Shown: positions 24,187 to 49,382 of the stretch, piece by piece | Position numbering within the stretch: position 1 is the first letter of the stretch | How the letters are laid out: each line of letters starts with the position of its first letter | Origin: Desulfobulbaceae bacterium | GTDB taxonomy: Bacteria > Desulfobacterota > Desulfobulbia > Desulfobulbales > Desulfobulbaceae | Direction: 5' to 3' | Assembly: GCA_011389815.1 (NCBI GenBank) | Contig: JAABTP010000003.1 | Location: 1-64,000 of the forward strand | DNA: 64,000 nt | Notes under the pieces: model-generated | Seen by the model: only the letters and a program-made list of their open reading frames with translations | The model's database searches: none | What the model was told of the DNA's origin: nothing | Translations under genes and position numbers: made by a program

Positions 24187-24663
24187 ATGCGGATCGGACA
24201 CGGTTTTGATGCCCATCGATTGACAAAAGGAAGGAAACTGATTCTCGGCGGGGTGGAGATTCCCTACGAGCTAGGGCTGGTCGGTCACTCGGATGCGGAT
24301 GTCCTGGTTCATGCCCTGATGGATGCCCTGCTCGGTGCCTTGGGGGCAGGGGATATCGGGCGACATTTCCCGGATACGGATGAGCAGTACCGGGGCGCGG
24401 ACAGCCTCAAGCTGCTTGAACGGGTCATGGAACTGGTCAGGGCGAAAAAGATGCACCTGGAGAACGCGGATATCACGGTGGTCTGCCAGCAGCCTAAACT
24501 TGCTCCCCACTTGGCGACCATGCAAAGCAATCTTGCCGCTGTTTGCGGAGTCTCACCGGAGCAGATCAATATCAAGGCCACCACCACAGAGAAGATGGGT
24601 TATACCGGGCGGGGCGAGGGGATTACTGCCCATGCAGTGGTGCTGCTCGCTGAGGCGGTATGA
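24187..24663 (+). CDS. ispF: 2-C-methyl-D-erythritol 2,4-cyclodiphosphate synthase
   Basis: 158 residues, standard length. It cyclizes CDP-ME 2-phosphate, releasing CMP. Motifs: [11 protein letters not shown] with the zinc ligands D8 and H10, the loop [20 protein letters not shown] with H42, [13 protein letters not shown] and [17 protein letters not shown]. The trimer binds zinc at subunit borders. Its stop codon overlaps the NACHT start (ATGA), an odd link between housekeeping and accessory genes. Confidence 0.97.
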
Positions 24664-27600
24664 TTGAAGGAGTGCTTATAAGCTGGGGTGCTACAGCAGC
24701 ATGGTCGGTTTTTGGCCCGGTTTTGGAAAATATTGCTCAGGGTGTGGCGAAGGATGCGGCTAAAAGCTATGTCGGTAAATGCTTCGGCAGTGTATTATCG
24801 CCCCTGAACCGCAAGCCGCTGACCAAGGCAACCGGTCTCGCAGTGAAAGAGCTGCTCAAGCTGCTGGAAGATGAATTGCTGGATGCGGAGCTGGAGACCC
24901 GCGAGCTGGAGGTGATGCGTGATGTCGTTGCCGACTTTTTGGAGCAGGACGTTGTGCAGCAGGCCATCGGTTCTTTATTTCTGGAGCCGGGCTATTATCT
25001 TGATCCGGCCCTTTTTGTAAAAGCGTGGCAGGATACTCCTGATGCTCCGGCCCTGCCCAATGATTTTTCCTGGAAGCGAATCAGCAAACGCTTCAGCCGC
25101 GAGGTGGAGGCTATTCGAGATGATTCAGCGGAACTGCGGGAAACCTTTGCCCGTCTGCGTTCTGCCAAGGACAGCGAGGATTGGCAGAAAGGACGTGACC
25201 TACCTCCAGAGTTTGATCTGGACAAATACGCGGATGCTCTGGTGGAACGCTTTGCCAGCCTCGGTCTGGATAGCTTGGACACCGAGGGCGCGGCCTATAA
25301 TGCGGTCCGCCTCTGGAACGTGTTTGTGCCCCAGTCCATCCGGGAATGTCAGAACTACCGACCGCAGTTGCTGGAGCTGCCCAAGGAAGAACAGCAACGC
25401 CTGATTCAGCAGGGTGAGGTCGATGCTCGCGAATTGGAGCTGCTGGAGCGCGAACGTCACGACCTGCGGCGGGCCTATTTTGACCAGACCCCGCGACCGG
25501 TCTTGGAGGTCTGCGCTGACCCGCAACTGCCCCGGCTCGTCATTCTCGGCGATCCCGGTTCCGGCAAATCTTCTCTGCTCCGCTTCCTGGCCCTGGAATG
25601 GGCACGAGATGAGGACGCCAACCGCCGTTATACTGCACCCCTACCTCTGCTCATCGAGCTGCGCGATTACAACCAGTGGGACTGCCCCAATGGTAAGGGC
25701 TTTGTCTCGTATCTGCATCATGCCCGTACTTGGCACCGTCTTAATCAACAGACCCTTGATGCCTTGCTTAAAATACCGGGCCGGGTTGTGCTCCTGCTGG
25801 ATGGCCTGGATGAAATCTTTGATCCCAAGGAGCGTGAGCAGGCCATCAATGATATCCATCGCTTCAGCAATGATTACCCTGATACCCGGATTATCCTGAC
25901 CTCTCGGGTGGTGGGGTATAAGACGCAGAGGTTGCGGGATGCAGAATTTAAAGACTTTATGCTCCAGGATTTGGATGAAGAGCAGGTTGAGCAATTTCTG
26001 GTTCTTTGGCATGAGACCACCTTTACGGATATCAATGAGGCCCAGCGCAAGCGGGAACGGCTGGCTAAAGCAATCAGGGAATCTAATCCTATCAAGCTGC
26101 TGGCGGGTAATCCTCTTCTCCTTACCTTGATGGCAATCATTAACCGTTATCAGGAATTACCCCGTGATCGGGTCTTGCTCTATGAAAAGGCGGCGGAGCT
26201 ACTGCTTCAGCAATGGGAAACAGAACGCTCGTTGCAGGATTTCCCCGGCCTCAGCGGAGAGATCGACCTCCGGGCAAAGTCCGCCATTCTGCGCCGGGTG
26301 GCTCTGGCGATGCAGACCGCTGAAGGGCAGGAGGAAGGCCGGGCTGCCAATATCATTCAGGGCGAACGACTCGCCGGGCTGATTGAAGCCTATTTGCGGG
26401 AAGATCTTCATTTTGATCAGGCCCGTGCTGCGGCTAATGCCTTGGTTAAGCAATTACGGGAACGGAATTTCATCCTCTGCTTTCTTGGCGGTGACAGCTA
26501 TGCCTTTGTCCACCGCACCTTTCTTGAATACTTCTGCGCCACCGAGTTTGTTCACCAGTTTGAAAAGAAAAAGAGCTTGAGCCTTGAGGAGCTGCTTGCT
26601 CTGTATGATAAATATTGCCGGGACGATGACTGGCAGGAAGTGCTGCGCCTGATCTGCGGGCAGCTTGATGAACAGTTTGCCGGGGAAATTATTGCGCACT
26701 TAACGGAGCAGGTGGATATGGAGGCGTGGGATGGGGAAACGCCGTTGCCGGAGTTGGTGCTGGCGGTTTGGTGTTTGAGTGAGGTGCGAAACCTAAAGCT
26801 TATTGAGGAGAAAATAGGAGTGGAGTTGCTGCTGAAGGTGATCCATTGTTTCCTTTCTGGGAGGAGAGAGATGGCTTCAGTGTCTGATCTTCTTACATCT
26901 TGTTATTCAGGATATTTCGCTAAACAATTACTTGTTGCAACTAAGAGTGTTGGGCCAGAATGGCCTGGGAAATCGAAGTTTTATTTTGATAGTACATGTG
27001 TAAAATATAGCGTGCCAAAAGGATATATACCATATAATAAAGAGGCGGTCGTTTTTTTCGCACATGTTTTGCAACAACGAGTTTTGGTCAACCAATTCTG
27101 TTTGGATGAAAATTGGGAGAATCGCCACAGCGGAGTGAAGATATTAAGTGAATACTGGCCTGATGATGAAACTCGCCAGCTGCTTCGTGAACGTGTTGTG
27201 CAGGATGAAGGGATTTCTATCCGTTATACGGCACTGGAGCAGATGGTCAAACACTGGCCGGATAGCGATACTCTTCAGTTGCTTAGTGAACGCGTTGTAC
27301 AGGACGAGGATGGCTCTATCCGTAAGAGTGCGCTGGAGCAATTGATTGCACATTGGAAGGATGATAAGGGGCTTCAATTGCTCAAAGAACGTATTAATCA
27401 GGATGAGGATCAAGATGTCCGTAGCACTGCATTGACGTTGTTGGTCAGGCACTGGCCTGATGATGAAACTCGTCAGCTAATTAGAGAACTAGCACCAGTA
27501 GAAGGCACAGCTGCACTTTTGTACGGCAAAGAGTTTTCCCGTTTTGGTGAAGTTGTATTTCAAGAGTACGTAGAGTTTGACTACGGGTATCTCAATCCTC

Positions 27601-27746
27601 GTCAACCAATCTCCGCCGAACACATCCAAAAAGCCGCAGAAGAAGCCAATATTCCCCCGGACAAAATCGACGAAACCGTGCGTTCCCTTTCCGAACACAT
27701 GGGCTGGGACATCACCAAAGGCAGCGAGGCCGGGAAGTTGCCCTAG
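24660..27746 (+). CDS. NACHT STAND ATPase with HEAT-like repeats (bNACHT-type)
   Basis: 1028 residues. Order: an N-terminal helical domain (1-230, starting [22 protein letters not shown]), a NACHT ATPase from about 270 (Walker [10 protein letters not shown] at 297-304; Walker [10 protein letters not shown] with D381, D384, E385; sensor-like LTSRVVGY), a winged-helix/helical stretch around 500-650 ([15 protein letters not shown]), then HEAT-like repeats. Three repeats of 33 residues begin with WPDDE or WKDD at 833, 866 and 899, with a partial fourth at 932. The tail ends [15 protein letters not shown]. Bacterial NACHT proteins are antiphage sensors related to eukaryotic NLRs; the effector here is not obvious, since no nuclease or membrane domain is visible at the N-terminus. 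The ATG overlaps the ispF stop. A defence role is inference from family knowledge. Confidence 0.88.
27678..27746 (+). repeat. NACHT tail, copy 1 (inside the gene)
   Basis: Reference copy of a segment that recurs downstream at 28455-28518 and 29055-29097. It encodes [18 protein letters not shown] and the stop of the NACHT gene. Confidence 0.85.
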
Positions 27747-36292: not shown

Positions 36293-37207
36293 ATGGAACA
36301 CAAGAAACGTATTTCCGTTGTTATCCCTGCTTATAATCACGAAAAATTTATTGGTGCGGCTGTGGATTCCGTGCTCAGCCAGACCTGGGAAAACCTGGAA
36401 TTGATCGTGGTTGATGATGGGTCCACCGATAAAACCGGGGAGCTTGTTCAAGCCTACACAGATCCTCGTTTATCGTATTATTATCAGGAAAATCAGGACG
36501 CTTTTAATACCATTAACCGGGGAATGAGTCTGGCCCAAGGCGAGTATATTGCGATCCTGAATTCCGATGATATCTATGCCAAAGATCGGTTGGAAAAACT
36601 TGTGGCGCATCAGCAGGCAAGCAATGCGGCCTGTTTATTTACTGATGTTATTCCCATCTGCGATGCAGGTACGGTATTTACAGACCCGGAATTTGGTTGG
36701 AATAGCTGGCATCATAAAAATCGGAACTGGTATTTTGCCTGCGAAGATCTGTATACAGCTTTTCTCAAGGGCAATTTAATGGTAACCACATCAAATCTGT
36801 TTATGATCGCAGAGGCTGTACATCGGGTCGGCAAATTTTGTTCTCTGCGTTACCTGCATGATTATGATTATATCTTCAGGATGATGCTGGCCTTTCCTGA
36901 TCAGGTGCATTATGTAGCTGATGAACAACTCCTCTATTACCGCATCCATGATGGCAATACTCTTGGGGAGGCAGCGATTATTGGGCGGCAGCAGGATATA
37001 CAGGTCATTCAGAAATACATGCTGGCAGCCCTACCCGGAGAATCAAGAATGATAGCCTCCGCAGGGACAAAGCGTCTGTTAGAGCTGCGGGATGAGCTGG
37101 AGCAGGTGCAAGGGGAACTGGCGGGTCAGGCTGAACCCAGTGTGCGGGAACAGGGGCGTCTGTTGTTTTCGGCAATCAAATACAAGCTGCGTAAAAAACT
37201 GCGCTGA
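36293..37207 (+). CDS. Family 2 glycosyltransferase
   Basis: 304 residues. RISVVIPAYNHEKFIGAAVDSVLSQTWENLELIVVDDGSTDKT is a textbook GT2 start; LNSDDIY is the DXD-type metal site; RYLHDYDYIFRM is the acceptor region. The C-terminal 60 residues are helical with basic end, typical of peripheral membrane contact. Probably works on a surface polysaccharide together with the genes that follow. Uma2 lies 22 bases downstream. Confidence 0.93.
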   Translation: MEHKKRISVVIPAYNHEKFIGAAVDSVLSQTWENLELIVVDDGSTDKTGELVQAYTDPRLSYYYQENQDAFNTINRGMSLAQGEYIAILNSDDIYAKDRLEKLVAHQQASNAACLFTDVIPICDAGTVFTDPEFGWNSWHHKNRNWYFACEDLYTAFLKGNLMVTTSNLFMIAEAVHRVGKFCSLRYLHDYDYIFRMMLAFPDQVHYVADEQLLYYRIHDGNTLGEAAIIGRQQDIQVIQKYMLAALPGESRMIASAGTKRLLELRDELEQVQGELAGQAEPSVREQGRLLFSAIKYKLRKKLR

Positions 37208-37229
37208 TTACAGAAGAGAGGAGGTACAG

Positions 37230-37706
37230 ATGGAATGGAATCAGGTTCTCGAACACCCGTCTCTGCAAAATATACCGTTTAAGATAGAACTTGATGAGTG
37301 GGGGAAAATTGTGATGACACCGGCATCGAATCTGCACGGCAATCTTCAGGTGAAAATTGCTCTGAAGCTCATGCAATGCACAAAAGAAGGCGAGGTCTCT
37401 GCCGAAATCAGTATTCAGACCTCAAAAAACGTCAAAGTAGCGGACGTTGCCTGGGCTTCCGCTGAGTTTATCGCCCAACACGGTTTTACAACACCGTATA
37501 GTATGGCACCGGAGATATGTGTTGAAATTATCTCACCCGGAAACATGAAAGGAGAGATGGCGGAAAAAAAAGAGCTGTATCTTGCCAAAGGGGCAAAGGA
37601 AGTATGGTTCTGCGATGAGAACGGTGACATGGAGTTCTTTAGCTATAAAGGCAGGATTACGGAGTCAAAGATATGCCCTGAGTTTCCTGCGAATATTTAT
37701 GCGTGA
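37230..37706 (+). CDS. Uma2-family protein, second copy
   Basis: 158 residues from the ATG at 37230, preceded by GGAGG; the upstream frame part belongs to the previous gene. Acidic core: VKVADVAWASAEF, PEICVEIISPGN, YLAKGAKEVWFCDENG. Close paralogue of the gene at 31141 (identical MEW start and LQN(L/I)PFKIEL). Inserted between a glycosyltransferase and glpD; nuclease activity only predicted. Confidence 0.9.
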   Translation: MEWNQVLEHPSLQNIPFKIELDEWGKIVMTPASNLHGNLQVKIALKLMQCTKEGEVSAEISIQTSKNVKVADVAWASAEFIAQHGFTTPYSMAPEICVEIISPGNMKGEMAEKKELYLAKGAKEVWFCDENGDMEFFSYKGRITESKICPEFPANIYA

Positions 37707-37724: not shown

Positions 37725-39443
37725 ATGCAGCGAAAAAAACATCTTGAGCAGCTCAAGAAAGAACAATTTGATATTCTGGTGATCGGCGGCGGCATTACCG
37801 GGGCCTGTATTGCCCATGATGCGGCTTTGCGTGGTTTTTCCGTAGCTTTGATCGAACGTCAGGATTTTGGTGGTTTTACTTCCTCTGCTTCCTCAAAATT
37901 GCTGCATGGAGGTATTCGCTATCTGCCCATGGGACAGGTCTGGAAGGTGAGGGAATCTGGCCGTGAGCAGATGATCTTTCAGCAGCTTGCGCCTCATCTT
38001 GTCAGCTGGAAACCCTTTTTGATTCCCACAGAGCATGGTTTGAGTCTGACCAAGGGGGCCTGGGCCCTCAAAACAGCAATGAAGCTCTACGGCCTTTGTC
38101 ATTTTGGGCTGAAGGATTTGTTGGATAATCCGGCCAGAAAGCCACCACAGGGGCCATTTCTTGGTGTTGAAGAAGCCTTGGCCGCAGCTCCTCAGCTGAA
38201 CAGTATAGAGCGGTTAAGCGGTGCCCAGGTGCTCTTTGAATCACATATGCACAGCTCTGAGCGGATGACCCTGGCTTTTCTCAAGACTGCGGTCAGCAAT
38301 GGTGCAAGGATGGCAAATTATGTGGAGGCTGAACAGTATCTGAGTTCGGCTGGTCGGATTGAGGGCGTAGTTGTACGTGACGCCCTGACTGATGAGCAGT
38401 TTTCCCTGCGAGCACGTCTGACCATTAACTCAGCAGGCCCGGCGACCCAGGCCCTGAATCGTTCCGTGCCTGGTCTCCAGCTTCGGATGAAGAAAGAACT
38501 CACCGGCTTTGCCCGAGGCGTCCATCTGGTGACCCGTCAGGTCCATCCGGAATACGCCTTAGCCCTGACCACCCGTAAGAAAACTGAGGGTTTTGTTACC
38601 AGAGGCGGGCGGCATTTTTTCATCATCCCTTGGCGTGGCCGCTCTCTCATCGGCACCACCAACGTACCCTTCAAAGGAACCTTTGATCAGGTCAGGGTGA
38701 CGCAAAAGGATATTGATGATTTTCTTGTTGATATCAACGAGGCCCTGCCGGATTTGCATCTCACCCGACAGGATGTCCATTATGCCTATACTGGCTTGTA
38801 TCCTCTTATAGTGCGTAATATTGAAGAGGATAAATATCAGGGAACCGGTGAGTACCAGCTGGTGGATCATGAAGCTACAGACAAGACGCCAAGGCTCATT
38901 ACCTCTTTGGGTGCTAAATTCACCACGGCCAGGAATGTGGCGGAAAAGACTGTTGATTTGGCTGCACAAAAGTTCAGCGAGCAGAAGAAGCCCTGCGGTA
39001 CAGTTGCAACGCCCCTGTTGGAGGGAACTATTGCTGACCTACCTGCTTTTATTGAAGAGAAACAGGCACAATATAAGGATCTGCTTTCCGCTGAGACTGT
39101 AGAGCATCTGATCCGTTATCATGGGACAGAGATTGATCGAATGATGAATCTGGCCGTTGGTCGTCCTGAACTCCTGCAACCTCTTTCTTCCAAACTTTCT
39201 ACCCTTGCGGTGGAGGTGTTCTACGCTGTGCAAGAGGAAATGGCAATGCATCTGGATGATGTTTTTTTTCGCCGTACCGGTGCCGGAACCATTGGCCAGC
39301 CCGATGAGATAACCTTGGAACAAGCTGCCGGCCTGATGGCTGCTGAACTCGGGTGGAGTGAGGACCAGAAGCACGAAGAAAAGAGCAAGGTGCTTGCCCG
39401 TTATGAGTATGGAGATAATGACGGGCAACGTAGTACAGAGTGA
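37725..39443 (+). CDS. glpD: Glycerol-3-phosphate dehydrogenase, FAD type
   Basis: 572 residues. FAD motif ILVIGGGITGACIAHDAALRG, RQDFGGFTSSASSKLLHGGIRYL (substrate and flavin contacts), and RGGRHFFIIPWRGRSLIGTTN. The end carries the C-terminal GlpD domain. It oxidizes glycerol-3-phosphate to DHAP at the cytoplasmic membrane, feeding the quinone pool. The ribosome site before the ATG is weak. Its neighbours are glycan genes, so a link to glycerol phosphate in surface polymers is possible. Confidence 0.93.
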   Translation: MQRKKHLEQLKKEQFDILVIGGGITGACIAHDAALRGFSVALIERQDFGGFTSSASSKLLHGGIRYLPMGQVWKVRESGREQMIFQQLAPHLVSWKPFLIPTEHGLSLTKGAWALKTAMKLYGLCHFGLKDLLDNPARKPPQGPFLGVEEALAAAPQLNSIERLSGAQVLFESHMHSSERMTLAFLKTAVSNGARMANYVEAEQYLSSAGRIEGVVVRDALTDEQFSLRARLTINSAGPATQALNRSVPGLQLRMKKELTGFARGVHLVTRQVHPEYALALTTRKKTEGFVTRGGRHFFIIPWRGRSLIGTTNVPFKGTFDQVRVTQKDIDDFLVDINEALPDLHLTRQDVHYAYTGLYPLIVRNIEEDKYQGTGEYQLVDHEATDKTPRLITSLGAKFTTARNVAEKTVDLAAQKFSEQKKPCGTVATPLLEGTIADLPAFIEEKQAQYKDLLSAETVEHLIRYHGTEIDRMMNLAVGRPELLQPLSSKLSTLAVEVFYAVQEEMAMHLDDVFFRRTGAGTIGQPDEITLEQAAGLMAAELGWSEDQKHEEKSKVLARYEYGDNDGQRSTE

Positions 39444-39467
39444 GCAGAATGAGCAGAGTGTGTGAGG

Positions 39468-40697
39468 ATGAGTAATCAGAACCTTGAGCAGCATAAAACT
39501 GTGCTGCACATTGCTCCCACCCCGTTTTTTGCCGACCGGGGTTGCCATATCCGGATCCGTAACGAGGTGGAGGCCCTGGCTTCGTATCCGTACCGGATCA
39601 TTATCTGTACCTACCATCATGGCAATGATGTGGAGGGGATGGATATCCGGCGTATTCTTTCAGTGCCTGGTTATACCAAATTGGATGCGGGTTATTCGCC
39701 CTTTCGTTTTCTGGCCGATTTTTTACTCTTCTTTCTCGTTCTGAAAACAACGTGGCAGGAACGCCCCTCTCTGCTCCATTGCCACCTCCATGAAGGAGCC
39801 CTGATAGGCTGGGCTGTGAAACTCTGTCTGTTCCGGAGAAAGATCAAGGTGCTGATGGATATGCAGGGCAGTCTTTCCGGGGAACTGGCTGCCTATAAGG
39901 CCTTTGATAGCTTCTCCTTTCTCTTGAAGTTTTTTCGTGCTGTTGAAGGGATTATCTGCCGGATGCCGGATTTCTTTTTCTGCTCTTCCCAACAGAGCTG
40001 TCAGGTGCTGCAAAAGGAGTTTCAAGTGCCAACGGAGAAGATTCAGTTGCTGCAGGATATTGTTCCTGATGCTTTTTTTCAGACCTCTGCATCAGAGCAA
40101 CTCCGGTCTGTTCGTTTTCAGGGGCTGATTCCCCAGGGAAAGCAGGTAATCCTGTATACTGGCTCTTTATTACCGGGAAAAGGGATGCAGCATATCCTGG
40201 AAGCCATGAGGATTCTTTGTGCTCACCGTGACGATCTTTTTTTTGTCCTGGTCGGTTACCCCCTGGAACCTGCAGAAGCGTACATCCGCCAGCATAAGCT
40301 GGAGTCATCCTGTCTGCTGCCGGGTCAGGTGGCCTATTGTGATCTGAGCGACTGGTTGGCCGTAGGTGATCTTGCCCTGGAACCCAAGGAGGCAGATTCC
40401 GGGGAGGCCAGCGGGAAGCTGCTCCATTATATGGCTGCCGGATTACCGGTGGTCTGTTTCGCCACAGAAAACAACCGAAAAATGTTGAGCGAAGCTGGCT
40501 ATTATGCACCTTCCTGTGATGGGCAGGGATTGGCGACTGGCATAGAAGCAGCCCTTGCTGATGGAGCGCAGGCCAGCAGACGGGGAGAGCAGGGGCGGGA
40601 ACAGGTTCAGAGTCAGTATTCCTCAGCTGTTGTGGGGCAGGTTCTTCATGAGGTATACAGGCGGTTTATCCATCCTTCAACCAACATCTCAGGTTAA
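39468..40697 (+). CDS. GT4-type glycosyltransferase
   Basis: 409 residues from the ATG at 39468 (an upstream GTG at 39462 is less good). GT-B fold: VLHIAPTPFFADRGCHIRIRNE at the acceptor half, YTGSLLPGKGMQHILEAM at the donor half, and LEPKEADSGEASGKLLHYMAAGLPVVCF as the donor-binding E-x7-E region. Likely transfers a sugar to a polymer assembled at the inner membrane. MBOAT gene follows after five bases. Confidence 0.92.
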   Translation: MSNQNLEQHKTVLHIAPTPFFADRGCHIRIRNEVEALASYPYRIIICTYHHGNDVEGMDIRRILSVPGYTKLDAGYSPFRFLADFLLFFLVLKTTWQERPSLLHCHLHEGALIGWAVKLCLFRRKIKVLMDMQGSLSGELAAYKAFDSFSFLLKFFRAVEGIICRMPDFFFCSSQQSCQVLQKEFQVPTEKIQLLQDIVPDAFFQTSASEQLRSVRFQGLIPQGKQVILYTGSLLPGKGMQHILEAMRILCAHRDDLFFVLVGYPLEPAEAYIRQHKLESSCLLPGQVAYCDLSDWLAVGDLALEPKEADSGEASGKLLHYMAAGLPVVCFATENNRKMLSEAGYYAPSCDGQGLATGIEAALADGAQASRRGEQGREQVQSQYSSAVVGQVLHEVYRRFIHPSTNISG

Positions 40698-40702
40698 CAG
40701 AG

Positions 40703-42145
40703 ATGGTTTTCAGCTCTGTTACCTTTCTTTTTCTTTTTCTGCCGGTTGTCCTGGTCGGTTATCTCTGTGTCGGCAGGAAAGGACGTAATCTGTTTTTGCT
40801 TTTATCCAGTCTTGTCTTTTATTTCTGGGGTGAGCAGCTCTTCGTCTTTGTCATGCTTGCCTCTATTGCGATGAATTATATCTTTGGCCTTCTTTTGGAC
40901 CGAGTAGGGAGACAAAGAAGCAGATCCGGCAAGATCTTACTGGCAGCCGCTCTTACTGCCAACCTTGGTATGCTCGGCTTTTTCAAGTATGCAAATTTTG
41001 CCGTGGATAACCTTAATATGTTACTCGGCCAGCTTGATATACCTCTTATCCATCTCAGCGATGTGCATCTTCCTATAGGTATTTCCTTTTTTACCTTTCA
41101 AGCGATGTCCTATCTTGTTGATCTGTACCGTCGGAAATGCAGGGCGCAAAAAAATCCGCTCTATCTCGGGCTGTATATCTCTCTTTTTCCCCAACTCATT
41201 GCTGGGCCTATTGTTCGCTACCGTGATATTGCGGAGCATATAAAAAAACGTACAGTTGGTCTGCATGATTTTGCCTGTGGCACAGAACGATTTATTTTCG
41301 GTTTAGGAAAAAAAGTCCTGATCGCCAATCCCATGGGCTTGATGGCGGATCATATTTTCGGTATGCAAATGCATCTGCTTTCAACCGGCACGGCCTGGCT
41401 GGGTGTTGTCTGTTATACCTTGCAGATTTATTTTGATTTTTCAGGATATTCAGACATGGCCATCGGCCTTGGGCGCATGTTCGGGTTTCACTTTCTGGAG
41501 AATTTTAATTATCCCTATATCAGTCGGTCTATTCGTGAATTTTGGCGGCGCTGGCATATTTCTTTATCAACCTGGTTCAGGGATTACCTTTATATTCCCT
41601 TAGGGGGCAACCGACACGGCAGTTTGCGGACGGCTTTGAATTTGTTATTAGTTTTCTTGCTTTGCGGTCTTTGGCATGGTGCGAGTTGGAATTTCATCCT
41701 TTGGGGCCTGATGTACGGTTTTTTTCTGGTTGCAGAACGGGGGTGTTGGGGCCGGATCGTAACCGGTATGCATCCGATTGGGCAGCATTGTTATACCCTG
41801 CTGGTGGTGATCAATGGCTGGGTATTTTTTCGCCTCGAGCAATTAACAGAGGCAGGTTCTTATTTCTCTGTTATGTATGGTTTGTCGGGAGCAGAGAGGA
41901 TGCATCCTCGCATCAGTATGGACTGTAATGCGTTATTTATCTGTTCATTTGTAGCCGGTATTCTGCTCAGTCTCCCGTTGTATCCCTGGCTGCGGACATA
42001 CTGGAGGGCTTGGATGCAAGAAAAATACCTTGCCGCCGTATCTGTGCAGGTTGTAAAGCTGGGTTTCATCTTGACGGTTTTGTTGCTTTCAGCCGGATCA
42101 ATTTCTGTTGGAGCGTATAATCCTTTTATCTATTTTAGATTCTAA
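40703..42145 (+). CDS. MBOAT O-acyltransferase, AlgI/DltB-like
   Basis: 480 residues with about ten membrane helices. Conserved AlgI/DltB marks: FKYANFAVDN, LPIGISFFTFQAMSYLVD, FDFSGYSDMAIGLGRMFGF, FWRRWHISLSTWFRDYLYIPLGG, and the catalytic histidine H325 in LWHGASWNFILWG. It moves acetyl or other acyl groups across the membrane to an exported polymer, with the SGNH protein encoded next doing the transfer. The AlgX/J-type partner immediately follows. Confidence 0.94.
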   Translation: MVFSSVTFLFLFLPVVLVGYLCVGRKGRNLFLLLSSLVFYFWGEQLFVFVMLASIAMNYIFGLLLDRVGRQRSRSGKILLAAALTANLGMLGFFKYANFAVDNLNMLLGQLDIPLIHLSDVHLPIGISFFTFQAMSYLVDLYRRKCRAQKNPLYLGLYISLFPQLIAGPIVRYRDIAEHIKKRTVGLHDFACGTERFIFGLGKKVLIANPMGLMADHIFGMQMHLLSTGTAWLGVVCYTLQIYFDFSGYSDMAIGLGRMFGFHFLENFNYPYISRSIREFWRRWHISLSTWFRDYLYIPLGGNRHGSLRTALNLLLVFLLCGLWHGASWNFILWGLMYGFFLVAERGCWGRIVTGMHPIGQHCYTLLVVINGWVFFRLEQLTEAGSYFSVMYGLSGAERMHPRISMDCNALFICSFVAGILLSLPLYPWLRTYWRAWMQEKYLAAVSVQVVKLGFILTVLLLSAGSISVGAYNPFIYFRF

Positions 42146-42149
42146 GATC

Positions 42150-43751
42150 ATGAGCTTTACGAGACGAGTTTATCCGGCAGCAGTTTCTGGCATTTTTTTG
42201 CTTTTTCTCCTCTTGCCCTTTTGTCTGTTTATGGTAGGCCCGCGTAAGGAAATTTCAGAAGCGGAAAAACGAAAGCTTGCTGTTTTTCCCGAGATAGTTC
42301 CGACCATGACCGGATTGACTGAATTTCCGAAGAAATTTGATGCATTTTACAGGGATCATTTCGGGTTGCGTGATAACCTCATCAGATTATATAACCTTCT
42401 TTCTTTGAAGATTTTTCATGTATCACCTTCTGATTTTGTTCTTAAAGGAAAGGAAGGCTGGTTTTTTTATATTGGCGAAGGGGTGTTTGATGATTTTAGC
42501 CGGATGGAGCATATTGATCAGATCTCCCTTGAACAACATGCTGCAACACTGATTGACCGGCGGAATTGGCTTGCCAGTTTTGGCGTGAGATATCTTTTTG
42601 TTCCGGTTCCTAATAAAATTTTTCTCTATGATGAATATCTCCCTGACAGAGTGCAAGGTGTCAGAGGAATGAATTTTTACGAGCAATTTACCGCTTTTTT
42701 AGAGCGAGAGATTTTTTTTGAGGATTTTATAAATCTTTATCCCGTATTACGAGACAATAAACAGGCAGAGCGGCTTTATTTTAAAACCGATACCCATTGG
42801 AGTAATGCCGGAGCCTTGCTGGCTTTTAATCAGATTATGAAGCGATGTTCTGATTGGTTTCCTGAAGAGAGTGCATCTGTGATTGAGAAAGAGATTGAGC
42901 GGGAGAATGTAACGTTTTCAGGTGATTTGGCTCGGCTTATGCATCAGGAAGGAGAAGTGACGGAACAGGTTGATGTTTTTAAGATAAAGAAACCCTGCGC
43001 TGAGAAAAAAAATACTCATCCCTCCCCGACCTCGCAGTATTTGCAGGAAGCTGATATTTCTGCTTCGAGACTACCCACTGAAAATGGCTGTCTGGATAAG
43101 ACTTTGACAGCTCTTATTGTGCATGATTCCTTCGGTATTCCTCTTCAACGATACTTTAACGAACGCTTCAAACGTGTTATTTATTCTCGACAGATTAAGC
43201 TTGATAAGCTGCAGAAGTTGATAGTCGGAGAGCGACCCGACATTGTTATCGAAATATGGGTAGCGAGGAATCTCGGCAGAGCACTTGCCCCGAATCCGGC
43301 TGAATGGACGACTAAAGTGCTTGAGGAGCAATATGCGGCGTCCGAGACAGTACGTATGCGTATAGACGGGTCATTGGATTTACAAAGGATCTCCTTGCGT
43401 AACCATGTCAGTTTGGAACGCCATGCTGATGGATTGCTGATCCATGCGCACGGTAACGATCCGTTTTTTGTGCTTCCGTTCACGCCCCCGGAAAAGCCTG
43501 AACGCTATTTGGTTGAAGTTGAAGTAGATGCTCCACAGAACACTACCTTTGCCTTGTATTTTACCATTGGAGAAAATACCAGGGATATAGCACCACAACA
43601 AGTGGTGGAGCAGAAAATACATAAAGGAAAAAACCGGTTGCTCTTGCGCTTACCTCATCCAGATGTTCGTGGTTTGTTGCGTATTGATCCTGGCAAAAAG
43701 GCGGGTAACTATCTCCTTCGTTCTCTGACAGTGAAGGGTGTTGCTCATTAA
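42150..43751 (+). CDS. AlgX/AlgJ-like SGNH O-acetyltransferase
   Basis: 533 residues from the ATG at 42150; the longer frame overlaps the MBOAT end. One N-terminal anchor (FLLFLLLPFCLFMV), then a periplasmic SGNH-like domain: DTHWSNAG with D214, H216 and W217, and HDSFG with S327. The triad is the one used by AlgJ/AlgX to acetylate alginate. A C-terminal strand-rich domain (from about 400) is probably a carbohydrate-binding module. It acts with the MBOAT protein. It may modify cellulose-, alginate- or other exopolysaccharide; the polymer is not identified here. Confidence 0.9.
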   Translation: MSFTRRVYPAAVSGIFLLFLLLPFCLFMVGPRKEISEAEKRKLAVFPEIVPTMTGLTEFPKKFDAFYRDHFGLRDNLIRLYNLLSLKIFHVSPSDFVLKGKEGWFFYIGEGVFDDFSRMEHIDQISLEQHAATLIDRRNWLASFGVRYLFVPVPNKIFLYDEYLPDRVQGVRGMNFYEQFTAFLEREIFFEDFINLYPVLRDNKQAERLYFKTDTHWSNAGALLAFNQIMKRCSDWFPEESASVIEKEIERENVTFSGDLARLMHQEGEVTEQVDVFKIKKPCAEKKNTHPSPTSQYLQEADISASRLPTENGCLDKTLTALIVHDSFGIPLQRYFNERFKRVIYSRQIKLDKLQKLIVGERPDIVIEIWVARNLGRALAPNPAEWTTKVLEEQYAASETVRMRIDGSLDLQRISLRNHVSLERHADGLLIHAHGNDPFFVLPFTPPEKPERYLVEVEVDAPQNTTFALYFTIGENTRDIAPQQVVEQKIHKGKNRLLLRLPHPDVRGLLRIDPGKKAGNYLLRSLTVKGVAH

Positions 43752-43782
43752 GGTGAGTAGATTTTTTTTTTGCACGTTCTGT

Positions 43783-44532
43783 ATGATGATGACGAAACAA
43801 GACCCCACCAAAAGAAGCCCTCAACCCGAGCATGAAACCAAGTTTGTTTTTCATAATATCCAGGCCCCGACCCTGATTCGCTGGTTACAACTACGTTGTC
43901 TGCCAGACCCGAATTTTCCAACAGGGATTATCTCAAGTATTTATTATGATACCAAGGATTGGTTGCTTCTCTATGAAAAATTTAATAGCGATTATTATAA
44001 GACCAAATTCAGGGTTCGTTGGTATGAAGGGATTGGGCATGATGTGTTTGGTGAAAACAGGGTAAACGAATCCCCTCCTGATTGTTCTTTTGTGGAGGTT
44101 AAGTACAAGATCGGAGCCACCCGTGAAAAGATGCGTTTTGCAAGCAGATATACGGGCAAGGAACTTGCTGCTAAACCATTAAGCGACCCTGATTTGCTGG
44201 AATTACAACAACAGGCCCGGAAAAAGGGGGCCAGGATTCCCTTCTCGCTTTACCCGGCCTTTCAAATACAGTACAAACGACGCAGGTTTCTTGAGCCAAA
44301 CACCCGTTGCCGGGTATGTATTGATTATGATATCCAGGCCCCACGGGTGAATGGTCAAATGTTGACCTCTGCCAAGCCCCAGGCTGTTCTCAATACCGGA
44401 GTTGTTGAGGTAAAGGGTCATATTGCTGATTTGCCAGGTAGTCTGCACCAACTTACAGCCCTTGGCTGTCGTAAACAGGCTTTTTCAAAATACGGCAGCT
44501 GCTATGCATTATTAACAGGGTTGTTTTTTTAA
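43783..44532 (+). CDS. VTC-domain protein (CYTH-like polyphosphate polymerase family)
   Basis: 249 residues from one of three ATGs at 43783-43789; the start is uncertain, and no clear ribosome site is seen. It opens with HETKFVFHNIQAPTLIRW, has SSIYYDTKDWLL and the basic residues KTKFRVRWYEG, then SFVEVKYKIG and VVEVKGHIADLP. That ExKF/YDT/KxRxR/E-x-K pattern is the VTC/CYTH tunnel that binds triphosphate. Bacterial VTC proteins are often next to DUF4956 and CotH genes, as here. Polyphosphate synthesis is a family inference. Confidence 0.86.
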   Translation: MMMTKQDPTKRSPQPEHETKFVFHNIQAPTLIRWLQLRCLPDPNFPTGIISSIYYDTKDWLLLYEKFNSDYYKTKFRVRWYEGIGHDVFGENRVNESPPDCSFVEVKYKIGATREKMRFASRYTGKELAAKPLSDPDLLELQQQARKKGARIPFSLYPAFQIQYKRRRFLEPNTRCRVCIDYDIQAPRVNGQMLTSAKPQAVLNTGVVEVKGHIADLPGSLHQLTALGCRKQAFSKYGSCYALLTGLFF

Positions 44533-44589
44533 AAAAGAGTATTCCCCGCTGTAAGGGCGAAAGGATGAATAAATAATAAGGAGACATAC

Positions 44590-45300
44590 GTGGAAGAGTT
44601 ACTCACATCCCTTTCCGGTTTTGGCAGCAATAGAATGGAACAGGTAGGTTTTTTGCCGTTCTTATTTTTAATGCTGATTTCGTTGCTCAGCTCTGTCTTT
44701 ATTTCGTTTTTATACACAAGGTTTTACAGTGTACGGGCAACGGGCAGTCAGGTGCATCGGGCCTTTCCACTCATCGGCATCTCTATTACAGCTATTTTTA
44801 TCAGTATTCAGTTCTCCCTGCCCCTCTCCCTGGGCTTGCTTGGGGCCTTGTCCATTGTTCGTTTTCGTACCCCTATTAAAGAGCCTGAAGAGATCGGCTT
44901 TATCATGCTGGTTGTTGCCTCATCCCTTTGCTGTTCCACCTTTAATCTCTCGTTTTTGGCGATCTTATTGATTGTTTGCGTGATTGCCCTGCTGGGAATG
45001 CAGTATTTTCAGCGGATTTTTAAAGGCGCAATGAATGATGGCATCATTATTCTGACCTTGGCCTCAGATGACTTTCAGGAAAAGAGCAGCTTTATTTTCC
45101 AGACACTGAAAGAGGAGATCCCACAAGGACGGATTGACAGTATTACAGATAATAATGGCGAGACGGTTATTTCTTATAACTTTATCCGGATGGAGCAGGA
45201 AGCTTTTCTGCAATTGCAGGCTAAGCTGAAAAACGGACAGCACGATGGGGTTGGTTCGATCGGGGCAAATATGTTCTATAATAAACAGGGAGCAATTTAG
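44590..45300 (+). CDS. DUF4956 membrane protein
   Basis: 236 residues from a GTG with AAGGAG upstream (44578-44583). Three to four membrane helices at about 20-150, with SIVRFRTPIKEPEEIGFIMLV between helices, the DUF4956 signature. The remaining 80 residues form a soluble domain. Adjacent VTC and CotH genes are the usual partners. The helper or transport role is unknown. Confidence 0.9.
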   Translation: MEELLTSLSGFGSNRMEQVGFLPFLFLMLISLLSSVFISFLYTRFYSVRATGSQVHRAFPLIGISITAIFISIQFSLPLSLGLLGALSIVRFRTPIKEPEEIGFIMLVVASSLCCSTFNLSFLAILLIVCVIALLGMQYFQRIFKGAMNDGIIILTLASDDFQEKSSFIFQTLKEEIPQGRIDSITDNNGETVISYNFIRMEQEAFLQLQAKLKNGQHDGVGSIGANMFYNKQGAI

Positions 45301-45323
45301 GCCTGTTGGGAAATGGTGGAAGA

Positions 45324-47432
45324 ATGAGATCCTATGGCCTTATTGTCTGCTGTCTCTGTGGCTTTGCTCTTGGCGCCTGTTTTTTGGAAAAAGAGGCTTT
45401 TTTTGCTGATTTGAAAACGGCATTGCAGGGGCAGGAAATTCCCAGCTCAATCCTTGACGTTGGCAAGATGGGAAAGATCCTGAAAGAAAGAGGACTGATC
45501 AAGACCATGCCCAAGGAGGAACTTTTTTCATCAGCGACTGCGTTAGATTTCACGAAATCGCTTCTGACGATAGAGCTTGAGATCCCAGTTGCTACAGAGC
45601 TTCAGGTATTCTGGACAGAGAAAAAAGAGCAGAAGTACGACATCGAACGAAGCAGCAGCGTTGCTATTGCTAGCGGACAAAAAGATTATCTCCTCACCCT
45701 TCCTCCCTTGTCTGAGCTGCGTCTGCTGCGCATTGATCCCACGACAAAACCGGCTGATATAAGAATACGCCGCATAATCCTGTACTCTGCTGAGCATGAG
45801 ATCGTGTTATCTCCTGGGGACGGTCTTGATCTGTTGAAGCCCTTAGCAGGTATCAGTTCCATGCATCATGATGGTGATGGGGTATCGTTCACAGCTCTGG
45901 ATGCTGATGCCCAGCTTGAACTACAACTGGATGATGTACGTGGCCCCAGAAAGATAGAGCAGCTTGCGTTTCCACGGAAACGCAAGAAAAGCCTGTATCG
46001 GCATGTTGTTGATGACGGGTCACAATCCTTTCCCAGCAGCCAGGTTATTACGCAAGAGCATTTCAAGGAGAACTGGCCCATCCTTTCCCTTGTTATTGAT
46101 GAGGCGAATCTCTATCATCCTGATACAGGTCTCCTTGCCAATAAGACAGCCCGTGGGCGTCAATGGGAACGCCCAGCCTATTGCTCATACTTTGATGAGC
46201 ATGGCAAGTTGCGTTTTGCCTCAATGGTGGGGATGAGAATGCATGGTGGCAAGCGGATGCAGCTTTATAGCAGCTTTCGTTTGTATTTTAGGAAAGAATA
46301 CGGTCAGTCTCGCTTTTCTGCCTTTCAGCCTAAGATAGGGTTTAGTACAACAACCGAACCTGTTAAACGCCTGGTGGTCCATCATACTGCCTGGCCTGAA
46401 GGAGGATGGTATTTTAATAATACCCTGGCCTATGATATTGCCCGGCGTATAGGCTGTCAGGTCCCGGAAACCCGTTTAGCGCTTCTGTACCTGAACGGTG
46501 TTGAGCAGGGAATATATTTTTTCGTGCCCCATTTGGGAGAGCGGCTGCTGGAAACCTACTTTGGTCATAGTGATTTCTTGTATTATAAATATAAGAGCGT
46601 CCCTTCTCATAAAGGGCGTGTGCTTAATGTCAGGTTATGGAGCGTCTTGAGAGAACGGGGGAATTTAACAATGAAGGCCGCTGGTAGAGTTGTTGATCTT
46701 GACAATTTGGCACGCCATCTTTTTTCGTTTATCTTCTGCGGTACGAGTGATTATTATCAGGGACTGGCTGTCCTTGATAACAGTCAACCGGATAAGAGGG
46801 CCTTTTGGATTAATTGGGATATGGATCAGAGTTTTATCCAGAATGTCCGTTCCGAGAAAATCGTTATGACGGAATGGCAGCAGCGTGCCTGGAGGCTTGT
46901 TTATATGGCTTCGCCGCCCTATACAGCCCAGGATGTACGACCACGGCTGTTCAGTCGTCTCCTGAATGAAGATCCTGCGTATCGTGAATATGTCCTTACC
47001 TTGTATCGGGATCTGTTGAATCATCGTCTCAATGCCCGTTTTGTCAAGGAGAGGATAGCGTATTACACGAATATGTTGGAGTATTACGGCAAAAAAGACA
47101 CGAAGTATATGAAGATGCTGGGCGAATTTATGAAGCAACGTCCAGAAGTGGTGCGTAAAGAGACCGAAAAGCTTTTCAAACTCGGGCCCAGTTTATTGTG
47201 TCAGGTCACAGGCCCGGCTGATATACAGTATGACATTGACGGCTACCAGGAGCCTGCTGGTTATCAGGGATATTATTTTAAAGGAAGCCGGATAACGGTC
47301 AGTATTGCTGCGCCCTATCAGAAGAGATTTTCTTACTGGTTGGTGAACGAAAAAAAAGTGAATAGTCCCAGGTTGGACCTTGAGGTGCGTGAAGATTTGA
47401 TTATTGAGCCGGTTTTTCAAGATGAAGAGTAG
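45324..47432 (+). CDS. CotH-kinase-family protein, predicted lipoprotein
   Basis: 702 residues from the ATG at 45324. A short signal with lipobox ALGAC suggests a lipidated protein. The CotH core lies at about 290-560: MVGMRMHGGKRMQLYSSFRLYFRKEYG (ATP-binding-like strand), KRLVVHHTAWPEGGWYFNNTLAYDIARRIG, ALLYLNGVEQGIYFFV, and FWINWDMDQSFI with the kinase aspartates. In Bacillus, CotH phosphorylates spore-coat proteins; secreted forms occur near surface polymers. Shares eleven bases with the SUMF1-like gene that follows. Target unknown. Confidence 0.9.
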   Translation: MRSYGLIVCCLCGFALGACFLEKEAFFADLKTALQGQEIPSSILDVGKMGKILKERGLIKTMPKEELFSSATALDFTKSLLTIELEIPVATELQVFWTEKKEQKYDIERSSSVAIASGQKDYLLTLPPLSELRLLRIDPTTKPADIRIRRIILYSAEHEIVLSPGDGLDLLKPLAGISSMHHDGDGVSFTALDADAQLELQLDDVRGPRKIEQLAFPRKRKKSLYRHVVDDGSQSFPSSQVITQEHFKENWPILSLVIDEANLYHPDTGLLANKTARGRQWERPAYCSYFDEHGKLRFASMVGMRMHGGKRMQLYSSFRLYFRKEYGQSRFSAFQPKIGFSTTTEPVKRLVVHHTAWPEGGWYFNNTLAYDIARRIGCQVPETRLALLYLNGVEQGIYFFVPHLGERLLETYFGHSDFLYYKYKSVPSHKGRVLNVRLWSVLRERGNLTMKAAGRVVDLDNLARHLFSFIFCGTSDYYQGLAVLDNSQPDKRAFWINWDMDQSFIQNVRSEKIVMTEWQQRAWRLVYMASPPYTAQDVRPRLFSRLLNEDPAYREYVLTLYRDLLNHRLNARFVKERIAYYTNMLEYYGKKDTKYMKMLGEFMKQRPEVVRKETEKLFKLGPSLLCQVTGPADIQYDIDGYQEPAGYQGYYFKGSRITVSIAAPYQKRFSYWLVNEKKVNSPRLDLEVREDLIIEPVFQDEE

Positions 47433-48351
47433 GCATGTGTACAGCATTCTGGGATGCTCTCTTGCAGTGTGGTTGCTCTCTACAATCGGAGTATTGGCAC
47501 AACCTCCTGAAGACCCCCAGCCGTATGAGCAGTGGAAGGATCCGGTCTCAGGTCTGGAGTTTATCTGGTTGCAGGGAGGCTGTTTTCAGCTCGGGAGCCG
47601 GGATCCGCGTCCCACCCGTTTGTTCCTTGAAAAACCGCTGCATACGGTCTGTGTTGATGGTTTCTGGATGGGCAAATATGAGGTCACTAATGGTCAGTAT
47701 CGCCAATTCAAACCAGCCCATAATAGCCAGGAGACTGAGGGCAGATCGTTGAATGGTGATGAGCAACCAGTGGTGTATGTGAGCTGGTATGATGCCAAGG
47801 CCTATATGGATTGGTTGACCCGAAACAGAGACCGTCAGGGAAGGCCTCTTTTTCGCCTGCCCACAGAGGCTGAATGGGAGTTTGCAGTCCGGGCCGGAAC
47901 AGAGACACCCAGATACTGGGGTGGTGAAGAGGAAAGCACAACAGAGACCTGTGCGTACGCTAATGTTGCTGATTTCTTCTATCAGCTCAAGCGGGTAAGT
48001 TACCATGATTGTTCTGATGGTTTCCTTGTTTCTGCCCCTGTGGGTCGTTTCCCAGCCAATCCTGCTGGATTGTATGATATGCTGGGAAATGTCTGGGAAT
48101 GGTGTGAAGATCATTATGGCAAGGAAACATATCGGGTCAATCAAGCGGCAGATAGGCCGAGAAACCCTCTGTACCAAGAGAAAGAGGACGGGTTCGATTA
48201 CCGGGTCATTCGCGGAGGGAGCTGGCTCAGTGAACCGAACTCAATCCGCTGCGCCAAGCGTTCTCCTTCTCCTCCTGCAAGCAGATTTAATGTGCTAGGA
48301 TTCAGGGTAGTCATGGAGACAGAACAAGAAGCAGGACTCCAAAATCATTAA
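47422..48351 (+). CDS. SUMF1/FGE-fold secreted protein
   Basis: 310 residues from the ATG at 47422, inside the end of the CotH gene. Signal peptide (SLAVWLLSTIGVLA). The FGE-sulfatase fold shows as EFIWLQGGCFQLGS, WMGKYEVTNGQYRQF, YVSWYDAKAYMDWL, RLPTEAEWEFAVRAG, YDMLGNVWEWCEDHYG and RGGSWLSEPNSIRCAKR. The copper-binding cysteine pair of true formylglycine-generating enzymes is not complete, so it is probably a binding protein of this fold. Tightly coupled to CotH, suggesting a joint periplasmic or surface role. Confidence 0.88.
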   Translation: MKSRHVYSILGCSLAVWLLSTIGVLAQPPEDPQPYEQWKDPVSGLEFIWLQGGCFQLGSRDPRPTRLFLEKPLHTVCVDGFWMGKYEVTNGQYRQFKPAHNSQETEGRSLNGDEQPVVYVSWYDAKAYMDWLTRNRDRQGRPLFRLPTEAEWEFAVRAGTETPRYWGGEEESTTETCAYANVADFFYQLKRVSYHDCSDGFLVSAPVGRFPANPAGLYDMLGNVWEWCEDHYGKETYRVNQAADRPRNPLYQEKEDGFDYRVIRGGSWLSEPNSIRCAKRSPSPPASRFNVLGFRVVMETEQEAGLQNH

Positions 48352-48398
48352 AGGCTCCGCTATAAAGCGGTTTCATACAATATTTAAGGATGTAAAAC

Positions 48399-49382
48399 AT
48401 GAAAGTACTTGTAACAGGCGGCACCGGCTTTACTGGCAAGGCCTTGGTCAAACGGTTGATTGATGAAGGGCATGATGTCGTGAGTCTGGATTATCAGGAA
48501 GGATTAAAAACCGATGAGATTCGTTCCTGGGGCGCCAAGGTGGTTATCGGCTCGGTGACGAACCGGGCTGTTGTTGAAGAATGTATGGAAGGTGTGGACA
48601 TGGTCCAGCATCTTGCAGCGGCCTTTCGGGAACTGGATGTGCCCAATAGCTATTATGATGAAGTCAATGTGGGCGGTACCAAGGTGGTATTGGATGCAGC
48701 CCTGGCCCATAAGGTGCAGAAATTCGTTTACTGCTCCACCTGTGGTGTGCATGGCAATGTGGATAATCCACCCGCAGCCGAGGATGCGCCTATCCAGCCA
48801 GGGGATTATTACCAGCAGACCAAGTATGATGCTGAGCCTGTGGTGAACGAGTACTGCAAAAAGGGGATGGATACCATCATCATACGGCCAGCGGCTATCT
48901 ATGGCCCTGGTGATCCTGAGCGCTTCCAGATGATCTTTAAACGGGTTACTAAGGGGACGTTTCCCATGTTTGGCTCAGGGAAGACCCTGTATCACCCCCT
49001 GTACATTGATAACCTGGTGGATGCTCTGATGCTGGCTATGGAACCGGGCAAGGGCGTGGGCGAGGCCTATCTGATTGCTGACGAAGAGTATGTCTCCATT
49101 GAGACCCTGGTCCGTAAGACCGGCAAGGCATTGGGCGTGGATGTCAAGGTGCCCCATTATCCCATTATGCCTCTGGTGGTGGCTGGTCATATCTGTGAAA
49201 AGGTCTGCAAGCCCTTTAAGATTACGCCGCCCATCTTCCCTCGTCGGGTGGATTGGTTCCGCCAGAATCGGGCCTTTGATATCAGTAAGGCCAAACGGGA
49301 TTTGGGCTATGCTCCCAAGATTGATCTGGATGAGGGGTTGAAACGGACCGGGGAGTGGTACCGGGCTGAGGGGTATATCTAG
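48399..49382 (+). CDS. NAD-dependent epimerase/dehydratase (extended SDR)
   Basis: 327 residues. VLVTGGTGFTGKALVKRLI is the Rossmann glycine motif; YYQQTKYDAE supplies the YxxxK active-site pair; YCSTCGVHG holds the catalytic Ser/Thr. Substrate is likely a nucleotide sugar for the polymer genes upstream, or a hydroxysteroid-type compound; not resolved. AAGGA ribosome site. Followed by a hairpin. Confidence 0.92.
   Translation: MKVLVTGGTGFTGKALVKRLIDEGHDVVSLDYQEGLKTDEIRSWGAKVVIGSVTNRAVVEECMEGVDMVQHLAAAFRELDVPNSYYDEVNVGGTKVVLDAALAHKVQKFVYCSTCGVHGNVDNPPAAEDAPIQPGDYYQQTKYDAEPVVNEYCKKGMDTIIIRPAAIYGPGDPERFQMIFKRVTKGTFPMFGSGKTLYHPLYIDNLVDALMLAMEPGKGVGEAYLIADEEYVSIETLVRKTGKALGVDVKVPHYPIMPLVVAGHICEKVCKPFKITPPIFPRRVDWFRQNRAFDISKAKRDLGYAPKIDLDEGLKRTGEWYRAEGYI

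Follow-up and report, generated by a model that had tools for sequence, protein, structure and literature searches.

Do neighboring genes for acyl transfer and for phosphotransfer, running together on one strand, form a single machine that decorates one exported polymer, or are they sets that can be kept and lost independently? The question is raised by six genes at positions 40703 to 48351 of contig JAABTP010000003.1 from a Desulfobulbaceae bacterium. The window, that is, the whole stretch of DNA that was analyzed, comprises 64,000 nt of this 4.0 Mb draft genome (G000:C168). Families were called with Pfam profiles against curated cut-offs, and start codons were read off the sequence. All six genes are present, co-directional, and correctly named in the initial annotation, every family score lying above its cut-off:

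40703 to 42145, + strand: MBOAT O-acyltransferase of the DltB/AlgI type, the membrane half of the acyl-transfer pair (PF03062, 104 bits, cut-off 27)
42150 (ATG) to 43751, + strand: AlgX/AlgJ/PatB1-like SGNH acetyltransferase (PF16822, 68 bits, cut-off 26.5)
43783 (ATG; or GTG 43738) to 44532, + strand: VTC-domain polyphosphate polymerase (PF09359, 69 bits, cut-off 23)
44590 to 45300, + strand: DUF4956 membrane protein (PF16316, 51 bits, cut-off 30.6)
45324 (ATG) to 47432, + strand: CotH atypical kinase (PF08757, 70 bits, cut-off 23.8)
47422 (ATG) to 48351, + strand: protein with the fold of SUMF1, the formylglycine-generating enzyme (FGE) (PF03781, 195 bits, cut-off 23.3)

Our answer is that the run probably holds two modules, a glycan-acetylation operon (module A) that includes the MBOAT and AlgX-like genes and an accessory polyphosphate/kinase module (module B) that was kept here and likely deleted in other members of the genus. 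The initial annotation had instead proposed that the six genes act together in modifying an exported polymer or surface proteins. The idea that they form one functional system, acylating and phosphorylating the same target, draws support from the arrangement of the genes. Their co-direction is unbroken, and the close packing described in that annotation is confirmed, with gaps of 4 bases between MBOAT and AlgX, 31 between AlgX and VTC (from ATG 43783), 57 between VTC and DUF4956, and 23 between DUF4956 and CotH, and then an 11-base overlap in which the SUMF1-like gene starts at 47422 and the CotH stop codon ends at 47432. (A SUMF1-like start one codon later, at 47425, was used in some searches; the results are not expected to change.) A promoter/terminator scan gave no + strand promoter- or terminator-like match between AlgX and VTC, so a single transcript is possible; the promoter scan total of 18 is near that of shuffled sequence (mean 14.1). 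The same-direction run extends past the six genes, with GT2 (glycosyltransferase family 2), GlpD-type, and GT4 genes upstream and an SDR gene downstream, which makes the six-gene limits arbitrary.

The distribution of the two halves among relatives speaks against a single system. The set of relatives searched comprised 145 genomes, and seven genomes other than that of the window belong to its genus (the congeners). A search with the AlgX-like protein gave a match of some kind in 49 of the 145. Orthologs at 73-80% identity are present in five of the seven congeners (G002, G003, G004, G006, and G007); G001 has no AlgX match and its contig ends before the locus, and G005, which is 69% complete, has a weak C-terminal match alone. 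The SDR ortholog was searched for in these last two genomes, and nothing was found at E 1e-60. In all five congener loci the order is GT2-GlpD-GT4-MBOAT-AlgX-SDR, with the SDR gene straight after AlgX, and genes for VTC, DUF4956, CotH, and the SUMF1-like protein are missing from the ~20 kb around each. The VTC-DUF4956-CotH-SUMF1-like block of the window sits exactly between AlgX and SDR. MBOAT is adjacent to AlgX in nine of 10 loci from other genera, the tenth (L068) starting at a contig end, and VTC, DUF4956, or CotH occurs in none of the 15 AlgX loci of relatives. Since the congeners keep the acetylation half without the phosphotransfer block, the two sets are not one fixed machine, and as part of the two-module explanation module A is probably a vertically kept exported-glycan locus.

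The acyl-transfer pair resembles those of alginate (AlgI/AlgJ/AlgX) and peptidoglycan (PatA/PatB) acetylation in combining a polytopic MBOAT protein with an exported SGNH protein that has a D-x-H motif and a candidate Ser. MBOAT aligns with DltB (6bug) and keeps the histidine of WHG (GLWHG against GFWHG in DltB). The D-x-H motif of the AlgX-like protein, TDTHW, was aligned to AlgJ (4o8v) and PatB1 (5v8d), and its HDSFG, which would supply the Ser, lies opposite KDSFA of PatB1 in a segment that alone scores below zero. Unlike in the alginate and peptidoglycan systems, the C-terminal domain here is a beta-sandwich common to this protein and CotH. No alginate synthesis genes were found among the neighbors scanned.

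The phosphotransfer genes likewise occur on their own. VTC is present in 8 and CotH in 12 of the 145 relatives, and a contiguous VTC-DUF4956-CotH core is found in five of the 145 genomes including the window, which alone has MBOAT-AlgX beside it. In the other four (G043, G116, G061, and G127) the unit reads VTC-DUF4956-[272-297 aa protein]-CotH, and MBOAT, AlgX, and SUMF1-like genes are not found in the ~20 kb around any of them. The intervening 272-297 aa protein (L013 7942-8826, L014 8081-8923, L015 10964-11857, and L016 11105-11923) carries a beta-sandwich flanked by hydrophobic segments, and its tail shows a weak match to the C-terminal part of DUF4956; in the window CotH carries this beta-sandwich as a fusion, and the tail is missing.

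We also scanned 84,980 species genomes with a DUF4956 alignment and kept 78 loci, which span Desulfobacterales, Spirochaetes, Planctomycetota, Verrucomicrobia, Acidobacteria, and others. Neighbors were labeled with custom profiles built from the window and the fetched loci, the FGE profile consisting of the window protein plus one match. VTC was found in 60 of these loci, CotH in 57, and a SUMF1-like gene in one (L147, Kiritimatiellae), whereas MBOAT and a whole AlgX gene each occur in 0/78 within the stored flanks, many of the contigs being short; three "ALGX" labels among the 78 are beta-sandwich matches. Among the 70 loci that contain a DUF4956 ORF, 41 combine an adjacent VTC gene with a CotH gene no more than 1.5 kb downstream, and many of the remaining loci are on short contigs. 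Restricting the count to the 33 loci flanked by 5 kb on each side gives VTC in 30, CotH in 30, GT2 matches in 11, a SUMF1-like gene in one, and MBOAT and AlgX in none. A Pfam scan of neighbors took in 231 of the 258 proteins selected at 63 loci (the others being a set of 26 and one CotH; eight loci, mostly presumed near-duplicates by eye, and those lacking a DUF4956 ORF had been dropped beforehand). It returned glycosyltransferase family 2 in 9/120 and family 1 in 3/120 of a first set and sulfatases in 3/111 of a second; MBOAT, ALGX, and FGE do not appear among the 25 commonest families, an absence that holds only for families with at least two members.

VTC-DUF4956-CotH is, then, a widespread unit of its own, and a fixed six-gene acylation/phosphorylation system was rejected because the halves separate in the congeners, in the four core-bearing relatives, and in the 78 DUF4956 loci. 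Co-occurrence of all six genes, which the initial annotation had offered as a check, was seen in 0/78 DUF4956 loci and 0/15 AlgX loci; of the two findings that it had named as contrary to its proposal, the scattered distribution of the halves was found and independent promoters between AlgX and VTC were not. Passages of two published reports describe comparable loci: in streptococci, clostridia, and bifidobacteria, Pel clusters have genes for DUF4956, CotH, and a polyphosphate polymerase beside them (PMC7112168), and one C. perfringens locus carries VTC-domain genes together with CotH genes (PMC2879425). The Pel-linked triad resembles the window in its three families and in their position beside genes for an exopolysaccharide. 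The window differs in that MBOAT-AlgX takes the place of Pel as the host locus, CotH has a beta-sandwich fused to it, and a SUMF1-like gene follows CotH. DUF4832 gave no match among the genes scanned at the window locus.

How the block came to lie between AlgX and SDR is indicated by what the congeners have at that site. The surrounding features of the window are as follows:

36293 to 37207, + strand: GT2 glycosyltransferase, the first gene of the conserved host run (PF00535; ortholog in the same order in 5/5 congener loci)
37725 to 39443, + strand: GlpD-type, FAD-dependent glycerol-3-phosphate oxidase/dehydrogenase-like protein (PF01266, PF16901; kept in the congener run)
39462 to 40697, + strand: GT4 glycosyltransferase (PF00534; kept in congeners)
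48297 to 48395, + strand: relic-matching stretch, the last 55 bases of the SUMF1-like gene and the spacer after it, common to the AlgX-SDR spacers of five congeners
48399 to 49382, + strand: SDR/epimerase-like gene (PF01370; directly after AlgX in congeners)

All five congener spacers align with the window from 48297 (48294 in G002, 48286 in G003) to ~48395, across the SUMF1-like stop at 48351. In the coding part the identities are 44/54 (G006), 45/57 (G002), 54/65 (G003), 41/54 (G004), and 41/54 (G007), with small indels, and past the stop they range from 30/38 to 36/43; this divergence is similar to that of the MBOAT, AlgX, and SDR DNA, which is 76.6-85.7% identical between congeners and window. 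The window reading frame at this point is GFRVVMET...GLQNH-stop, to which correspond RIRVVMET...GLPTH-stop in G003 and G006 and frames starting RIRVVIET in G002 and RIRAVMKA in G004 and G007. The five spacers gave no match to the rest of the block above shuffled controls. Because a 3' relic of the SUMF1-like gene is present in all five congeners, the alignments indicate that the block, or at least the SUMF1-like gene, was most likely ancestral at this site and deleted in them. A simple recent insertion of the block into the window genome was rejected, as the relic speaks for deletion. A foreign composition was also rejected, the GC content (0.44-0.51) and codon scores of the block genes falling inside the spread of 37 other window ORFs (mean GC 0.482, sd 0.059).

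Elsewhere in the window, a 204 aa ORF (37092-37706) overlaps the 3' end of the GT2 gene; we take it, from the look of its sequence, to resemble a Uma2/DUF820-type protein, and it has no separate counterpart ORF in the congener loci. The GlpD-type gene is split into two ORFs in G003. Farther upstream, 24660-27746 is a 1028 aa ORF with what we take to be a NACHT-like NTPase followed by HEAT-like repeats, possibly a defense gene.

Of the module B proteins, VTC and CotH retain their catalytic residues. In alignment, the VTC protein keeps the catalytic residues of a polyphosphate polymerase and probably makes polyphosphate. Its profile matches yeast Vtc4 at E 8e-14, and R77, R79, and E209 align with Vtc4 R264, R266, and E426 (numbers counted in the alignment), the equivalents being invariant in 8/8 VTC proteins. 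A passage in PMC9911596 describes the R264A/R266A/E426N form of Vtc4 as catalytically impaired. The TTM-type polymerase residues are likewise kept in the yeast VTC complex; unlike Vtc4, the window protein is a bare VTC domain (264 aa or less) with no SPX match, and its membrane partner would be DUF4956. In the AlphaFold2 model of DUF4956 (pLDDT 86), five long helices lead into a C-terminal domain with a ferredoxin-like fold, and the first Foldseek match of the model is the C-terminal domain of MgtC (E 9e-4). This topology presumably fits an MgtC-type membrane part plus an ACT-like C-terminal domain. A Pfam scan gave no MgtC family match for DUF4956 at E 0.01, and we treat an MgtC/SapB-like identity, suggested by the model, as a lead only.

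For CotH, alignment and model agree that the kinase fold and the catalytic Asp pair are kept. The AlphaFold2 model, built on 36 sequences (pLDDT 84), matches B. cereus CotH (5jd9) with Z 25.2 and rmsd 2.7 over 316 aligned residues, and the profile match to 5jd9 has E 2.9e-12. D476 and D499, invariant in 6/6 aligned rows, align with two Asp residues of 5jd9 that are 23 apart; as D228 and D251 of B. subtilis CotH have the same spacing, we infer that these are the same pair. The D228Q and D251A forms of the B. subtilis protein are inactive, as stated in a passage of PMC7821199. The fold and the two Asp residues are those of the Bacillus spore-coat kinase, to which the window CotH adds an N-terminal helix and a beta-sandwich (~residues 79-200) ahead of the kinase domain. 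The window genome has one more CotH gene (G000:C172:14905-15885, in L076), which lies in a stretch with no VTC or DUF4956 matches.

By profile comparison, this beta-sandwich and the C-terminus of the AlgX-like protein (~residues 455-529, the last ~75 residues) are one domain family. In a small search set, the AlgX-like protein was recovered with the beta-sandwich profile at E 3e-5, and a direct hhalign comparison of the AlgX C-terminus with CotH ~residues 79-160 gives a probability of 97.9 and E 3e-13 (one comparison) at 23% identity. Scans of the carrier proteins gave no Pfam name for the domain. In relatives the domain occurs, too, on two acyltransferase-3 proteins (PF01757; L066, L069), on long membrane proteins that gave no Pfam match (L070, L071), and on a GT2 protein and another CotH, both in L098 (L066 5-1048 and 1023-2633; L069 12092-13852; L070 1055-2929; L071 8059-9924; L098 29-3529 and 10715-12817); several of these genes lie near MBOAT-AlgX. 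The third Foldseek match of the CotH model, after two CotH entries, is the carbohydrate-binding module 2xhh (E 4e-4, probability 1.0), a match that we infer to cover the beta-sandwich. A firm assignment as a carbohydrate-binding module was rejected, since the residues covered by the 2xhh match are not given and the VIA rows mostly span CotH 243-621. A polymer-binding role may, by analogy, fit the company the domain keeps on surface-polymer enzymes.

This shared domain, and its occurrence near MBOAT-AlgX in relatives, is a further argument for the six genes acting as one system, and together with the unbroken co-direction and the overlap it makes some local cooperation plausible. The two copies are just 23% identical, which is not what a recent local swap between the AlgX-like protein and CotH would leave, and against the absence of either half from the loci of the other we regard a single system as unlikely. 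Acyl transfer and surface phosphorylation, both foreseen in the initial annotation, are each plausible; a dedicated joint system is not supported.

The SUMF1-like protein has the fold and family of the formylglycine-generating enzyme. In alignment, human FGE GGSYMCHRSYCYRYRC lies opposite GGSWLSEP and then NSIRC, so that the two catalytic cysteines are missing, as the term "copper-less" in the initial annotation had implied. Formylglycine formation is thus not expected, and a role as an FGE enzyme was rejected, the family fold being kept and both copper-binding active-site cysteines missing. From the look of its N-terminus the protein is putatively exported. The window genome has 11 matches to this family and each of the seven congeners has 4 to 19; none exceeds 49% identity over any stretch, and the best over the full length reaches 45%. 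With a family this large in the genus, the presence of one member beside CotH is unremarkable. This, and an FGE gene adjoining the triad in just one of the 78 other loci, would suit chance placement, with module B acting elsewhere in the envelope and the SUMF1-like gene an unrelated passenger. The GT2 matches in 11 of the 33 well-flanked core loci, the adjacency to Pel clusters given in a passage of PMC7112168, and the CotH/SUMF1-like overlap, which points to joint expression, argue against it, and we consider chance placement improbable. As a recurring set, the SUMF1-like gene with the triad was rejected, one case in 78 being too few. In that one case (L147 8297-9304), an FGE-fold protein overlaps the VTC of a VTC-DUF4956-CotH run and, by eye, also lacks the cysteine pair; it is a possible second instance of the pairing.

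Under the two-module explanation, module A would assemble an exported glycan, with the MBOAT and AlgX-like pair moving acyl groups across the membrane onto it. VTC would turn ATP into polyphosphate at the cytoplasmic face, and DUF4956 would be its membrane partner, probably passing polyphosphate across. CotH, anchored outside via its N-terminal helix, would phosphorylate a surface target, the beta-sandwich may hold it near the polymer, and the SUMF1-like protein could be an exported, non-catalytic binding partner or substrate of CotH. Several points weigh against this explanation. Activity, polymer, and transcript are all predicted, the case being known from genes and models. Polyphosphate translocation by DUF4956 is a suggestion without direct support, and the MgtC C-terminus, its best fold match, was not singled out by VIA-align. 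The deletion is read from a short relic, ~5 codons of which fall in the conserved FGE domain. Gene trees disagree, with formate-THF (tetrahydrofolate) ligase grouping the window genome with G004/G007 and PilB grouping it with G001, and a tree of MBOAT plus AlgX leaves its placement in the genus open. A FastTree tree has the window basal (0.886). With gene trees in conflict, a later regain of the block by recombination is possible. It is very unlikely, in our estimate, that polyphosphate made and exported by VTC and DUF4956 serves CotH as phosphoryl donor while a shared carbohydrate-binding-like module brings CotH and the AlgX-like protein to one glycan, so that this polymer, or for instance the SUMF1-like product as a protein on it, becomes both acetylated and phosphorylated.

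We take the fused CotH, the exchangeable beta-sandwich, and the presence or absence of the block inside one genus to be apparently new. No statement that polyphosphate feeds CotH was found in the parts of the open-licence literature searched, and the idea may still be published elsewhere. The locus separates conserved glycan-acetylation genes from a losable polyphosphate/kinase module and so offers a natural presence/absence contrast within one genus, and it brings to attention a beta-sandwich, given no Pfam name by our scans, that recurs on CotH, on AlgX-like and acyltransferase-3 proteins, and on other membrane proteins. If polyphosphate does feed CotH outside the membrane, the donor source of secreted bacterial kinases would become testable, and such a donor would answer the lack of ATP there.

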